A DNA stretch of 64,000 nucleotides. Source: Arthrobacter zhangbolii (GTDB taxonomy: Bacteria > Actinomycetota > Actinomycetes > Actinomycetales > Micrococcaceae). The position numbers were made by a program, and so were the translations under genes. How positions within the stretch are numbered: the first letter of the stretch is position 1; every line of letters starts with the position of its first letter. The stretch spans positions 1,984,001 to 2,048,000 of the forward strand of contig NZ_CP094984.1 in NCBI RefSeq assembly GCF_022869865.1, written 5' to 3'. The notes beneath the pieces were generated by a model. It saw nothing but the letters and a program-made list of their open reading frames with translations. It had not been told where the DNA came from and made no database searches. Below, in pieces: positions 783 through 5,812 of this stretch.

Positions 783-3281
783 CTAGGCCGGAACGATGTT
801 CACGAGCTTGGGCGCCCGGACAATCACGGTGCGGATGCCGCGGCCGTCCAGGGTGCGCTGCACGGCCTCGGAGGCCAGCGCGGCCTCACGCAGGTCATCC
901 TCGGAAATGTCCGCGGCCACCTCGAGCCGGTCACGGACCTTCCCCTGGACCTGGACCACGGCGGTGACCGTGTCCTGCACCAGCAGGGTTTCATCCACAG
1001 TCGGCCATCCGGCGTTCACCACGGAGGCGTCGCGGCCCAGCAGGTTCCACAGATCCTCGGCCGTGTACGGGGCGAAGAGGCTCAGGATCACCGCAACCGC
1101 CTCGGCCGCTTCGCGTACTGCCGGGTCGGCACCGCCCACGCCGGAATCGATGGCCTTGCGGGTGGCGTTGACCAGCTCCATCAGCTTGGCCACCACCACG
1201 TTGAACTTGTTGTTCTCCAGCAGTTCGGTGGCGTCCGCGACGGTCCGGTGGGTCATGGCACGGAGTTTTTTGTCCCCGCCCGTGAAGGCGATGCCGGGTT
1301 CGCTGCTGACGTCCTGGCCGAGGCGCCAGGCGCGGGCCAGGAACTTCGCAGAGCCCGACGGCGAGACGTCCGCCCAGTCGACGTCGTCCTCCGGCGGGGA
1401 CGCGAAGATCATGGTCAGGCGCACGGCGTCGACGCCGTACTTATCCAGCTGCTGGCCCAGGTCCACGCCATTGCCCAGGGACTTGGACATGGCCTTGCCC
1501 CCGTTGAGCACCTGGCCCTGGTTCAGCAGCGAGCTGAAGGGCTCACTTGCCGGCAGCAGGCCCATGTCATGGACCACCTTGGTGAAGAACCGCGCGTAGA
1601 GCAGGTGCAGGATGGCGTGCTCGACGCCGCCCACGTACTGGCCAACGGGCATCCAGTTCTTCGCAGCCTCGGGATCGAACGGGCCCTCGGTGAAGTGCGG
1701 GGAGACAAAGCGCATGAAGTACCAGGACGAGTCCACGAAGGTGTCCATGGTGTCGGTGTCGCGCTTGGCGGGGCCGGCACACTTCGGGCAGGAGACGTTG
1801 ACCCATTCCTCGGCCGAGGCCAGGGGTGAGGTGCCCTTCGGCGCCAGGGCCTCGCCCTTCAGCCCGGTGGGCAGGGTGACGGGCAGCTGGTCATCCGGAA
1901 CCGGAACCTCGCCGCACTTTTCGCAGTGGATGATCGGGATGGGCGTGCCCCAGAAGCGCTGGCGGGAGAGCAGCCAGTCCCGCAGGCGGAAGTTCACGAA
2001 CTTCTCCCCCGTGCCCTGCTCTTCGAGCATGGTGATGGCGGCCGGGATCGCTTCGGACTTCGGCAGTCCGTCGAGGGTGCCGGAGTTGATCAGGGTGCCT
2101 TCGCCGGTGGTGGCCACGCCGCTGACGGCGGGATCCTCTTCGCCGGTGTCCAGGACCGCCTTCACGGGCAGGTCGAAGGTCCTGGCGAAGTCCAGGTCAC
2201 GCTGGTCGTGCGCCGGGACCGCCATGATGGCGCCCGTGCCGTAGTCGGCCAGCACATAGTCGGCGGCCCAGACGGGCAGCTTTTCGCCGTTAAGCGGGTT
2301 CACTGCGTAGCGGCCGGTAAAAACGCCGGTCTTGGTGCGTTCGGTGGACTGGCGCTCGATGTCCGAGAGGGCCTTGACCTGTTCCCGGTACGCCGTCAGC
2401 GCATCGCGGTTCTCATCGGTGACCAGGTCCATCGCCAGCGGTGCGTCTGCCGCCACGACAAAGAACGTGGCACCGGCCAGGGTGTCCGGGCGGGTGGTGA
2501 AGACGGTGACCTGCTCTTCGCCCTTGCCGCCGGCGGCTTCGATGACGAAGCGGACGTGGGCACCTTCGGAGCGGCCGATCCAGTTCTTCTGCATAGCCAG
2601 CACGCGCTCGGGCCAGTGGCCCTTGAGCTGCTCCATGTCATCGAGCAGGCGGTCCGCGTAATCGGTGATCTTGAAGTACCACTGGTTCAGGGACTTCTTG
2701 GTGACCTGGGTGCCGCAGCGTTCACAGGCGCCGTTGACTACCTGTTCGTTGGCCAGCACGGTCTGGTCCTTGGGGCACCAGTTGACCGGGGAGTTCTTCC
2801 GGTAGGCCAGACCACGCTCGTAGAAGCGCGTGAACAGCCACTGGGTCCAGCGGTAGTACTCCGGGTCCGAGGTGTGGATGCGGCGGGACCAGTCAACACT
2901 GATGGCGTAGCGCTTGAAGGATTCAGCCTGGGTTTCAATGTTGCGATAGGTCCAGTCGCTGGGGTGCGCGTTGTTCTTGATCGCGGCATTCTCAGCCGGC
3001 AGGCCGAAGGAATCCCAGCCGATCGGGTGGAGCACGTCGTAACCGAGCTGGCGCCAGTAACGGGCGACGACGTCGCCCATGGCGAACGCTTCGGCATGGC
3101 CCATGTGCAGGTCACCCGACGGGTAAGGGAACATGTCCAGGACGTAGCGGCGCTCGCGCGAGCCGTCGTCGGCAGGGGTGAATACGCCAAGGTCCTCCCA
3201 GACCTGAGGCCATTTCTGCTCGATGGCCGCGAAACTGTAGACGGCCTCTTCCTGCTGATCAGTCTGTGACTGCGTGCTCAC
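783..3281 (-). CDS. leuS: Leucyl-tRNA synthetase
   Basis: This 832-residue class I synthetase charges tRNA(Leu) in the cytoplasm. The HIGH-type motif reads HMGHA at residues 59-63 and the KMSKS-type motif reads MSKS near residue 597. The CP1 editing domain carries TTRPDTLAG near residue 260. The length fits bacterial LeuRS. I chose the GTG at 3281 (protein begins MSTQSQTD) because GAGG lies just upstream; a longer reading frame from 3410 would run through the leader hairpins and has no family similarity. The 5' leader holds a leucine-rich peptide and terminator-like hairpins, so expression probably responds to charged tRNA(Leu). A DegV-family gene follows 12 bp downstream. Confidence 0.97.
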
Positions 3282-3375
3282 TATGCTTCGCCTCTGTCCT
3301 GAAAGAAAAATGTTGATCCGCGCATTCCGGGCCCGTGTTCCCCGTCCCGGAAAACCGGGTCCTCCCCAGACACAC

Positions 3376-3400
3376 AAAAGCCCCTCGACAAGCAAGGGGC
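3376..3400 (-). terminator. Attenuator terminator hairpin in the leuS leader
   Basis: On the minus strand a 6-bp GC stem (GCCCCT at 3395-3400 paired with AGGGGC at 3380-3385, 9-nt loop) is followed by UUUU at 3379-3376 and a GU-rich tract. It lies between the leader peptide and the leuS start, where an attenuator terminator would be expected. The U-run is short, so its strength is uncertain. Confidence 0.6.
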
Positions 3401-3402
3401 GG

Positions 3403-3423
3403 CCGCGCACGGACGGTGCGCGG
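3403..3423 (-). promoter_or_regulatory. Pause/antiterminator-type hairpin in the leuS leader
   Basis: This is a perfect 8-bp stem, CCGCGCAC at 3403-3410 against GTGCGCGG at 3416-3423, with a 5-nt loop. It starts right after the leader-peptide stop codon and two bases before the terminator hairpin. That position suits a pause or 2:3 hairpin in classical attenuation, but I could not work out the exact alternative pairings. Confidence 0.55.
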
Positions 3424-3450
3424 CTAGCTAAGGAGGAGTACTGCGCTCAT
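3424..3450 (-). CDS. Leucine-rich leader peptide upstream of leuS (MSAVLLLS)
   Basis: This 8-codon open frame reads MSAVLLLS and ends in TAG. Three consecutive leucine codons (CTC CTC CTT) precede the stop. Two hairpins and then leuS follow on the same strand. The layout is that of a transcription-attenuation leader, where ribosome stalling at Leu codons reports charged tRNA(Leu). Comparable leuS attenuators were predicted in some Streptomyces. GGAG lies 2 nt before the ATG, and TAAAGT ends 6 nt before it, so the mRNA may be leaderless. Confidence 0.7.
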
Positions 3451-3456
3451 TTCTCC

Positions 3457-3462
3457 ACTTTA
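3457..3462 (-). promoter_or_regulatory. Putative -10 box for the leuS leader transcript
   Basis: TAAAGT on the minus strand ends exactly 6 nt before the leader-peptide ATG. The start of transcription would then fall on or next to the A of the ATG. No good -35 box is visible. Confidence 0.45.
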
Positions 3463-3632
3463 CAACAGAGCGTGCGCTCCGGAAGCAGGATGACGGGGTG
3501 AGCCGCAGCGGGAAATTCCGACCGGCAGCGTATCTTTTTGCCGGCTCCGTGCGTCTACCGGTTAAAGACTCTGGCGCAATGCCATTGTTGGTTCAGGACC
3601 GCCGGGGGCGGCCCGGGAAAAGGAGCGGAGAA

Positions 3633-4715
3633 ATGTCAGTGGAGACAACCCCTGCTGTGTCATTGGCGGGCATGGAAAGCAACAGTGCGGGACTGGGCGG
3701 GATTCCGCATCGGCTGCGGCAGGTCCGGCGCGATTTCCTGCTCGCATTGGAGCCGGTTCGTCCTTCCGTTTACCGTTACTGCCGAAGCCTGGCCGGAAAC
3801 GTGTGGGACGCGGAGGATCTGCTCCAGGACACCCTGGCCAAGGCACTGGCCGAGGCATCCCAGCGGCACGAACCCATCCGGAACCCTCAGGCCTGGCTGA
3901 TCCGCATTGCCACCAGCACCTGGCTGGACACCGTCCGGCGCAGCAACCGGAGCACGACGGCGGATTTCAGCACACCGGAGATGGACCGGCCCGACCACGG
4001 CGCCGCCGATCCCCTTACAGCCGTGGCCGTGGAAGCCGCCCTGCGGCGCCTGGTGCTTCTTCTGCCCCCGAGGGAGCGCGTCTGCGTGGTCCTCAAGGAC
4101 GTCTTCGGCTATTCCCTGGCCGAAACCGCTGACGTGCTTGAGACCAGTGCCGGTGCGGTGAAATCGGCCCTCCACCGCGGCCGGAGTACGCTGGCTGCCG
4201 CGCAGGAGCCGTCCTCCCGTGCCGATAGTCCGGCCGACGGTTCGGCCCGCAGTTCCGCGGGCACTCCAGCGGGCAGTTCCGCGGCAGGCGCTCCTGCCGG
4301 GCACGCCGACTTGCTGCGCCGGCTGGCGGATGCGTTCAATTCCTACGACATTGAGTCCATGGTCAGCCTGTTCCTTGCAAACGGCCGGACCGAGGTGGTG
4401 GGCAACGTCAGCGAAACCGGACACGAGGAAATCCGTACCGGTTCGCTGGACCACACGTTCGGTCCGGATGCGCCCGAGATCTACCGGGCCACCGTGCATG
4501 CGTTCGACGGCGAGGAAGTTATCCTGCTGTGGGAGCGGCCCAAGGACAGTCCGCACGCTGCGGACGTGGTGGCCGACGTCGTCCGGATGCGCGCAGCCGA
4601 CGGCGTGCCGCTGATTGCCGAAACCAAGGTCTATTACTTCTGCCCGGAACTGCTGGCGGAAGTGGCCGGCGGCCTGGGACTGCCTTTCAAAACCAACGGA
4701 GTGTCCTACTTCTGA
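3633..4715 (+). CDS. ECF-type RNA polymerase sigma factor with SnoaL-like C-terminal domain
   Basis: This 360-residue protein has sigma region 2 at about residues 30-105 (DAEDLLQDTLAKAL, then NPQAWLIRIATSTWLD) and sigma region 4 at about 137-187 (LPPRERVCVVLKDVFGYSL). A proline/serine-rich linker leads to a SnoaL/NTF2-like domain from about residue 222. That arrangement is the SigJ/ECF41-like class, in which the C-terminal domain modulates the sigma factor without a classical anti-sigma. No anti-sigma gene is adjacent. The ATG at 3633 has a strong AAAAGGAG site; a frame open from 3498 adds 45 residues with no domain. The regulon is unknown. Confidence 0.85.
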   Translation: MSVETTPAVSLAGMESNSAGLGGIPHRLRQVRRDFLLALEPVRPSVYRYCRSLAGNVWDAEDLLQDTLAKALAEASQRHEPIRNPQAWLIRIATSTWLDTVRRSNRSTTADFSTPEMDRPDHGAADPLTAVAVEAALRRLVLLLPPRERVCVVLKDVFGYSLAETADVLETSAGAVKSALHRGRSTLAAAQEPSSRADSPADGSARSSAGTPAGSSAAGAPAGHADLLRRLADAFNSYDIESMVSLFLANGRTEVVGNVSETGHEEIRTGSLDHTFGPDAPEIYRATVHAFDGEEVILLWERPKDSPHAADVVADVVRMRAADGVPLIAETKVYYFCPELLAEVAGGLGLPFKTNGVSYF

Positions 4716-4807: not shown

Positions 4808-5812
4808 CTAGCGTGCAGCCGCGTCCCGGCGTCTGCGGGCTCCCTGCGCTTCCCCGGCTTCCTGTGCCTCGCGCGCCGCCCGAAAGGCCAGGAACGCTTC
4901 CCTGCTCGTGCGGCCGGGGGTGTAGCCGAACTCCTCTTTAAGTGCCCTGTTGTCCAGCACCGGCCGATAGCGCAGGAACCGCACCCGTTCCGGACCGTGC
5001 ACCGTCAGCCAGAGCCTGCTGCCGAGCCAGAGCGCTGCGGCCAGCACAGGAGCCGGGACCGTGATGGTGCCCCGCCGCTGGAGCGCGGCGATCTCCCGGA
5101 CGGTCAGTGCGCCGTCGCCGGCCACGTTGTAGATGCCGCTGCGGCCGGTGACGGCAGCCTGCACCATCACCCCGGCAACGTCTTCGTCCCAGACAAAAAC
5201 GAAGGGTGACTCGCTGCCCGCCACCCTCAGCAGCCGCGGGGCGTCCAGCAGGGCGGTGATCTGGTTGCGGACCCGTTCCCCCAGGATGGTGCCGATCCGG
5301 AAAACTGTCTGCTTCAGTTCCGGATGCTCAGCGCGGACCCGGGCCAGCTCCTCCTCCACCAGGCGTTTGTGCTGTGAATAGGCGAATTCGTCGTTGCCGC
5401 GGATCGGGTCGGCTTCGGTCAGCCACGGGGAGTTATCCGGGTGGTAGCCGTAGGCGGCCCCGGAGGAGGAAATGATCACGTGTTTGACGCCGGCGGCAAT
5501 GCAGGCCGCCAGGACGTTGCGTGACCCGTCCACGTCCACCCGGTATTCCTGTTCCCGGGTGGTGCTTTTCCCGGGGTTTACGATTGCCGCCAGGTGCACC
5601 ACCGTGTCTATCCGGTGCTCTGCCAGTAGCCGCGCGACCTCCGGTGAGCACACGTCTGCGAGGGCGTAGGCGACGCCGTCGAGCCGTCGCTCCGGAGCCG
5701 GTTCCCGGATGTCGAGGCTCAGCACATGGGTGATATCGGGGTGTTCGGCCAACCGTGCCACCACGGCACTGCCCAGGAACCCGTTGCCGCCCGTGACGCA
5801 GACGCGGGTCAC
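4808..5812 (-). CDS. NAD-dependent epimerase/dehydratase family protein (extended SDR)
   Basis: This 334-residue extended short-chain dehydrogenase/reductase has the Rossmann motif TGGNGFLGS at residues 7-15. Asp34 in the SLDIRE strand suits NAD binding, and the catalytic pair is YxxxK at Tyr145/Lys149 with SSSGAAYG just before it. The substrate cannot be deduced; family members act on nucleotide sugars or other hydroxylated compounds. Its ATG overlaps the stop of the BASS transporter gene by 4 bp, so it is the last gene of a three-gene operon with a flavin monooxygenase. This suggests modification of a small molecule rather than sugar-nucleotide metabolism. Confidence 0.85.
   Translation of the reverse strand: MTRVCVTGGNGFLGSAVVARLAEHPDITHVLSLDIREPAPERRLDGVAYALADVCSPEVARLLAEHRIDTVVHLAAIVNPGKSTTREQEYRVDVDGSRNVLAACIAAGVKHVIISSSGAAYGYHPDNSPWLTEADPIRGNDEFAYSQHKRLVEEELARVRAEHPELKQTVFRIGTILGERVRNQITALLDAPRLLRVAGSESPFVFVWDEDVAGVMVQAAVTGRSGIYNVAGDGALTVREIAALQRRGTITVPAPVLAAALWLGSRLWLTVHGPERVRFLRYRPVLDNRALKEEFGYTPGRTSREAFLAFRAAREAQEAGEAQGARRRRDAAAR

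Follow-up and report, generated by a model that had tools for sequence, protein, structure and literature searches.

The leuS gene of Arthrobacter zhangbolii is preceded by an element that probably works as a ribosome-mediated transcription attenuator, which would sense charged tRNA-Leu, apparently with no textbook hairpin swap. Sequence comparison shows a position before leuS, a leader that codes for a peptide, a bias in the codons of this leader, and two hairpins, the second of which is terminator-like. In the window (the whole stretch of 64,000 nucleotides analysed here), the original prediction had placed at 3376-3462 of the minus strand a TAAAGT box, an 8-codon leader, an 8-bp hairpin and a terminator with UUUU, followed by leuS, and both its coordinates and its description of this order are right.

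All parts of the element lie on the minus strand of the window. The -10 box TAAAGT (3457..3462) of a probable leaderless promoter ends 6 bases before the ATG of the leader ORF (3424..3450), which reads ATG AGC GCA GTA CTC CTC CTT AGC TAG and encodes the 8-codon peptide MSAVLLLS*, with the putative regulatory Leu codons CTC CTC CTT at 3430..3438. Hairpin 1 (CCGCGCAC/GTGCGCGG, 3403-3423) is a perfect stem of 8 bp with a 5-nt loop. It can be counted as 9 bp (GCCGCGCAC/GTGCGCGGC, 3402..3424), a stem with covariation support that starts in the stop codon, the ninth pair being G3424:C3402, in which the G is the last base of that codon. Hairpin 2 (GCCCCTTG/CGAGGGGC, 3380..3400) is preceded by C3401 and has an energy of its own of -12.9 kcal/mol; its stem is supported by covariation and looks from its sequence like an intrinsic terminator. 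It is followed by TTTT (3376-3379), which opens the conserved termination tract TTTTGTGTGTC (3369..3379). The presumed regulated gene, leuS, extends over 783..3281 and starts with the GTG at 3281; its product is a leucine--tRNA ligase, which scores 978.5 bits with TIGR00396 (cut-off 548.4). Few shuffles fold as well as the 93-nt stretch (z -2.75, with 3 of 200 equally good), and the 184-nt stretch does not clearly stand out from its own shuffles (z -1.59, 12 of 200). No Rfam family matches the window at its gathering score. The best weak match is anti-hemB, and with 22.4 bits, far under the gathering cut-off of 49.5, we rejected this identity for the element.

Directly upstream of the element, on the plus strand, a divergent ORF at 3498-4715 appears by reading to be sigma-factor-like. 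At the locus L006 the sequence 5' of the element instead resembles the end of the window's epimerase-like ORF (4808-5812), and because of this difference the sigma-like gene may represent an insertion or a loss.

Relatives were located through LeuS, and most Arthrobacter-type loci found this way show the same order of parts before leuS; because it is conserved in relatives with its parts in the same order, the element is beyond what chance would give. Conservation among close relatives was the ground on which the original prediction could have failed, and there the Leu codons and both hairpins are conserved, and both hairpins covary. From 67 of 115 loci we chose 58 distinct sequences by a pattern that required AGCCG, CCCC, GGGG and TTTT, and 49 of these, of Micrococcaceae type, form the alignment A1 from which a covariance model was built. 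The invariance of these four motifs in A1 is therefore partly by construction, and the score of the window's own element is not independent, since its sequence helped to build the model. At an E-value of 0.01 the model matches all 24 genomes sampled from the window's genus and, in the family, 161 of 295 genomes spread over 19 of 32 genera, so that the arrangement first proposed for one locus, a Leu-codon leader peptide and an intrinsic terminator upstream of leuS, recurs by comparison in these genomes. Matches were also found in 73 of 297 genomes of the order and 92 of 296 of the class; the four samples overlap, and the family, order and class counts are lower bounds, because scans of more than 40 genomes use stricter filters.

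Further regions were picked non-randomly from the listed model matches, and 93 of the 96 sources matched. Among the 186 model matches examined, 179 have leuS downstream on the same strand, in 139 cases nearest to the window's LeuS and in 40 to a second type of LeuS that is about 40% identical to it. The remaining seven lie before acetolactate synthase (three), before citramalate synthase (three) and at a contig end (one). Control of leuS through this element is not general, as by eye the 300 nt before leuS lack such an element in the loci of Kocuria, Rothia and Yaniella, and 134 of the 295 family genomes had no model match in the stricter-filter scan. Glutamicibacter-type loci (L039-L042, L048, L054) carry what seems by eye to be a degenerate version before leuS, in which a CCCCC/GGGGG hairpin and TTTTGTTGTGTC follow short ORFs (e.g., MNPKRNLA*) that contain one CTA, which is very rare among Leu codons. 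L069, which is among the 49 rows of A1, comes from a record titled Sporosarcina beigongshangi and has the full element and a LeuS 85% identical to the window's; this assembly is probably mislabelled or contaminated. At L290 a run of N follows the terminator. A second model hit in the window's own genome (L117; 18.7 bits, E 0.83) opens an ORF that reads as helicase-like, and we took it as a chance match.

The leader was parsed in 177 cases, after exclusion of L291, L294 and L295 and with 6 of the other 183 left unparsed; one row from before citramalate synthase (cimA; L297) is still included. In 168 of the 177, 6 or 7 nt separate the end of a -10 box TANNNT from the start codon, and because of this spacing the mRNA is probably leaderless, with the RNA beginning at or next to the start codon (ATG in 128 leaders, GTG in 49). 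The run of three leucines is present in 149 of the parsed leaders and broken in 28, and synonymous changes occur at all three Leu codons. The third codon is biased: among the 149 leaders with the run it is CTT in 126, CTA in 11, CTC in 11 and CTG in 1, and counting each of the 126 distinct sequences once gives 109, 7, 9 and 1, respectively. By comparison, the 68 Leu codons of the window's leuS comprise 51 CTG, 15 CTC and 2 CTT. Over the 31 ORFs of the window with a GC3 of at least 0.75, a filter that leans against CTT, CTG makes up 70% and CTT 6.5% of Leu codons, and with the filter removed (33 ORFs, not all of them real genes) these values are 56% and 14%. Rare codons at regulatory positions are linked with particular isoacceptors and their charging. 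Stop codons fall mostly at two sites, either a TAG that immediately precedes hairpin 1 (the case in the window) or a TGA three codons further on, and the latter lies inside the 5' arm of hairpin 1 in many other families (e.g., LLLTEPR* and LLLTGPR*). From these patterns the leader looks translated, and its codons look as if they matter.

Both hairpins are supported by covariation. We compared A1 and two alignments fitted to the covariance model, A2 (93 rows, Micrococcaceae) and A3 (93 rows, mostly other families), with shuffles, and the cells changed on both sides numbered 58 vs 19 for A1, 123 vs 34 for A2 and 164 vs 32 for A3, with none of 500 shuffles as high in any of the three. In A1 two of the five covariation measures were no higher than in the shuffles (both-side-changed pairs reached by 241 of 500, further pair types by 189 of 500), and in A2 the measure of pairs changed on both sides was reached by 41 of 500. 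If the partners are shifted by 1-3 columns, the fraction of paired cells drops from 92-95% to 32-64%. When every pair of columns was scanned and those canonical in more than 80% were listed, pairs of hairpins 1 and 2 came out at the top, and no third helix was seen. The isolated A2 pairs 84-91, 33-78 and 5-33 occupy ranks five to seven, ahead of some true pairs, and do not stack into a helix.

Hairpin 1 varies widely in sequence and in length, from 17 nt (L050) to more than 50 nt (L009), with its foot a few bases after the Leu codons and its end near the terminator; the spacing from GCGGC to the CCC run is 2-3 nt in 153 of 186 rows, different in 12 and unparsed in 21. By sequence and covariation, an intrinsic terminator lies between the leader and leuS. 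With up to two mismatches the 16-mer GGGGCTTTTGTGTGTC has one other site in the genome, at a hairpin terminator after a gene that is GroEL-type by a reading of its last residues, and because this site follows a hairpin at a gene end it supports hairpin 2 as a true intrinsic terminator; the number of hits is at chance level, since a backward control pattern also matched the genome once. We had considered the conserved tail UUUUGNNUGUCNGG as a separate regulatory site; since this tail is also present at another gene end of the genome, the simpler view is that it belongs to the terminator.

A layout resembling that of the Escherichia coli leaders, and the antiterminator and terminator hairpins that Seliverstov et al. 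gave to the Streptomyces leuS leaders (PMC1262725), speak for a textbook attenuator, in which a ribosome stalled on the Leu codons would leave part of hairpin 1 free to pair with the 5' arm of the terminator as a 2:3 antiterminator. We consider this unlikely for the element described here. We folded the RNA left free by a ribosome placed at each Leu codon or at the stop codon, assuming a footprint of 10 nt beyond the A-site codon; the readout was whether the terminator 5' arm is already engaged before the 3' arm is made, and the contrast is the value at the stall minus that at the stop. Stall and stop values for the E. coli controls were 0.62 and 0.01 for trpL, 0.67 and 0.01 for leuL, and 0.90 and 0.01 for thrL, so that all three reach a contrast of at least 0.5 (0.61, 0.66 and 0.89). 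In contrast, none of 175 leuS-type elements does so; two reach 0.3, and the mean is -0.02 [for this set 9 of 186 rows were dropped, 2 of the 177 left had no computable stop value, and the rows from before acetolactate synthase (ilvB) and cimA were kept in]. For the window, a ribosome on the Leu codons gives an engagement of the 5' arm of 0.17-0.24, and one on the stop codon gives 0.45. An engagement above 0.5 occurs in 8 of 63 elements with the ribosome at the third Leu codon, yet in 12 of 63 with the ribosome at the stop codon.

The energies agree with this. Stalling narrows the gap to terminator-free structures from 13.6-16.3 to 4.4-7.9 kcal/mol at the lowest in the E. coli leaders, and only from 12.4 to 11.1 kcal/mol on average in the elements described here. 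The equilibrium probability of the terminator is high in both sets (about 0.9 or above in the E. coli controls) and does not discriminate between them. When segments were permuted among representatives, matched pairing between arm 2 of hairpin 1 and the terminator was no better than mismatched pairing (z +1.2), whereas the positive control, the two arms of hairpin 1, gave z -18.9. An antiterminator formed by arm 2 of hairpin 1 and the 5' arm of the terminator is therefore unsupported by the permutation, by the stalled-ribosome folding and by the covariation scan, and in these predictions nothing competes with the terminator on stalling. Since the covariation scan shows no such pairing and none is favoured at a stall on the Leu codons, a competing antiterminator in its textbook form may not exist. 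Of the attenuator first proposed for this locus, the leader, the terminator and the link to leuS are conserved, and the classical antiterminator switch finds no support.

The same leader could also act after termination. In the window, the Leu codons can form a 10-bp helix with CTGGGGAGGA (3360..3369), which is present in both the minimum-energy fold and the centroid of the 184-nt stretch, and other species have possible helices of the Leu run at differing positions. Somewhat as in the LEU element of leuA, the read-through RNA would then pair its Leu run with a segment 3' of the terminator, and a stalled ribosome would free this segment and raise leuS translation or RNA stability. Matched pairing of the leader with the post-terminator segment beats permutation in 71 representatives (z -5.5, 0 of 2000) and in 60 representatives (z -2.6 to -3.5). 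However, the signal becomes small within groups, where matched pairs are only weakly better than mismatched ones (z about -2, p 0.02-0.03); it is seen within Micrococcaceae (p 0.012-0.014, with a null reversed-leader control) and is absent outside this family (p 0.35). Of 95 sequences taken singly, only 7 do better than their own shuffles at p<0.05. Common descent can produce a similar signal and may account for part of it. Over the 40 nt directly upstream of leuS, which include the ribosome site, matched pairing with the Leu run is no better than mismatched pairing, and we dropped this site as a partner of the run, with the qualification that a site paired in all species would escape the comparison. 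A helix between the Leu run and the post-terminator segment is tentative and carries no weight in our preferred explanation, and control of leuS by this route seems to us improbable.

Elements of the same kind precede other genes of branched-chain amino acid metabolism. The three matches before acetolactate synthase have branched-chain codons in the leader (e.g., VHRILVVSEHVV), and the three before citramalate synthase have leaders with Leu and Ile codons (e.g., VAHPALLIT). NCBIfam confirmed one protein of each kind (at L291 and L295), and the others were identified by reading the translation. The cimA-type layout was seen at L295:3037-3142 (-), L297:322-426 (-) and L298:95-175 (+), in genomes of the order, with leaders VAHPALLIT or VAHKALLIT and TTTTGTGTGTCCGG tails. 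Among the papers searched we found none joining an attenuator, a leader peptide and citramalate synthase. Outside the window, the genome of A. zhangbolii carries at about 2320750-2321200 (-), in L343, a leader MQIVPVVLIKRVA before ilvB, followed by a hairpin over the end of the ORF and then a terminator CCCCT..AGGGG TTTTTTT. The hairpin and terminator stand in the same order as before leuS, and the folding behaves like that of the leuS elements, with no classical contrast. A search of this genome, run with no positive control, gave no cimA match.

These leaders also bear on the simplest alternative, a constitutive partial terminator behind a translated leader that does not sense leucine, with hairpin 1 there to stabilise the RNA or to bind a protein. 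Our analysis found no switch in the folding, and in Streptomyces coelicolor changes to the ilvB leader codons are reported to have left regulation unaltered (PMC1262725), both of which are in line with such a terminator. It would, however, leave unexplained the Leu run and the link to leuS (179 of 186), the branched-chain codons before ilvB and cimA, and a third codon that is hardly ever CTG. In Mycobacterium tuberculosis, moreover, replacing the LVVI codons of the ilvB1 leader by alanine codons is reported to give a low, inhibitor-independent reporter signal (PMC13236596). We regard a constitutive terminator as very improbable.

For the ribosome-mediated attenuator that we prefer, the -10 spacing suggests that transcription would start at or next to the leader AUG and that a ribosome would begin on the 5' end of the nascent RNA, a leaderless start having been shown for the homologue in Streptomyces lividans (PMC8079986). 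With plentiful charged tRNA-Leu the ribosome would clear the three Leu codons and end translation, and the polymerase would stop at hairpin 2 and its UUUU; in the window the terminated RNA would end in the tract UUUUGUGUGU. A shortage of charged tRNA-Leu, and especially of the species that read CUU and CUC, would stall the ribosome so that its leading edge lies close to the foot of hairpin 1; termination would then fail, and leuS would be made. As no antiterminator is predicted, folding alone gives no reason for stalling to relieve termination. Our working proposal is that the stalled ribosome acts directly on the terminator: hairpin 1, as a compact spacer, would buy time for the ribosome and, once it has stalled, keep it packed against the terminator and the polymerase, and the packed ribosome would itself hinder the terminator hairpin or the release step. 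We favour this unproven hypothesis because the ends of hairpin 1 are fixed and its length is not. A broader idea, which we put forward as possible though doubtful, is that leuS, ilvB and cimA of Actinomycetia share a second kind of attenuation, defined by a leaderless ORF, a hairpin variable in length and fixed in position, a nearby terminator and no antiterminator, in which either the stalled ribosome itself blocks termination or a coupled ribosome carries the polymerase through. If so, attenuation of these genes would need no RNA pairing switch. How a stalled ribosome would prevent termination with no visible antiterminator is a sharp question for leuS, and the same question applies to the ilvB leader of this genome and to the cimA leaders, with possible shared control of several branched-chain amino acid genes.

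As in leuL, trpL and thrL of E. coli, the control codons lie in a leader peptide that is followed by an intrinsic terminator. The E. coli leaders have a competing antiterminator that folding detects, whereas the leuS elements do not, and the leuS leader described here is probably leaderless and has only 8 codons. With the LEU element before actinobacterial leuA the element shares a Leu-codon leader peptide and a possible pairing of the Leu run downstream; for the LEU element a pseudoknot and pairing with the Shine-Dalgarno sequence are described (PMC1262725), whereas the leuS element has a terminator and gives no matched-pair signal at the ribosome site. Codon changes in the leuA leader of S. 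coelicolor are reported to have acted in a non-classical way (PMC1262725). The ilvB attenuators of Corynebacterium (PMC10272879) and M. tuberculosis (PMC13236596) likewise combine a leader ORF of branched-chain codons with an intrinsic terminator, but they concern another gene and other codons, and antiterminators are proposed for them in the same two reports.

The closest known system is leuL2-leuS of Streptomyces. As the original prediction stated, leuS attenuators were already predicted for some Streptomyces: in 2005 for S. coelicolor and S. avermitilis, where the account given calls them classical, with an antiterminator (PMC1262725). The folding analysis presented here, unlike that account, finds no antiterminator. 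In S. lividans TK24 the transcript of LeuL2 (MRAVRLLLSEPR) was mapped in 2021 and reported to be leaderless (PMC8079986), and in the window the -10 box ends 6 nt before the ATG. Both elements lie directly before leuS and consist of a short ORF with LLL, a hairpin and a U run; the window differs in that its ORF stops at a TAG before hairpin 1 and not three codons later inside it, and in that its hairpin 1 has another sequence. The original prediction knew of no description in Arthrobacter-type bacteria, and we likewise found none for a leuS attenuator there in the open-access literature, although Lopatovskaya et al. (2010) may list more leuS leaders. As far as the literature searched shows, four points are new: how far the family extends, that it has Arthrobacter-type members, its codon signature, and that no competing antiterminator can be detected. 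The leader is exactly MRAVRLLLSEPR in seven loci (L186, L321-L323, L326, L331 and L332), whose genomes we take from this peptide to be Streptomyces. Because a model built from Micrococcaceae-type sequences finds members with a leader identical to LeuL2, we conclude from sequence homology that the element in the window is a member of the Streptomyces leuL2-leuS attenuator family, and what was a prediction for two Streptomyces becomes a family across many actinobacterial families, with a covariance model and a codon signature of its own.
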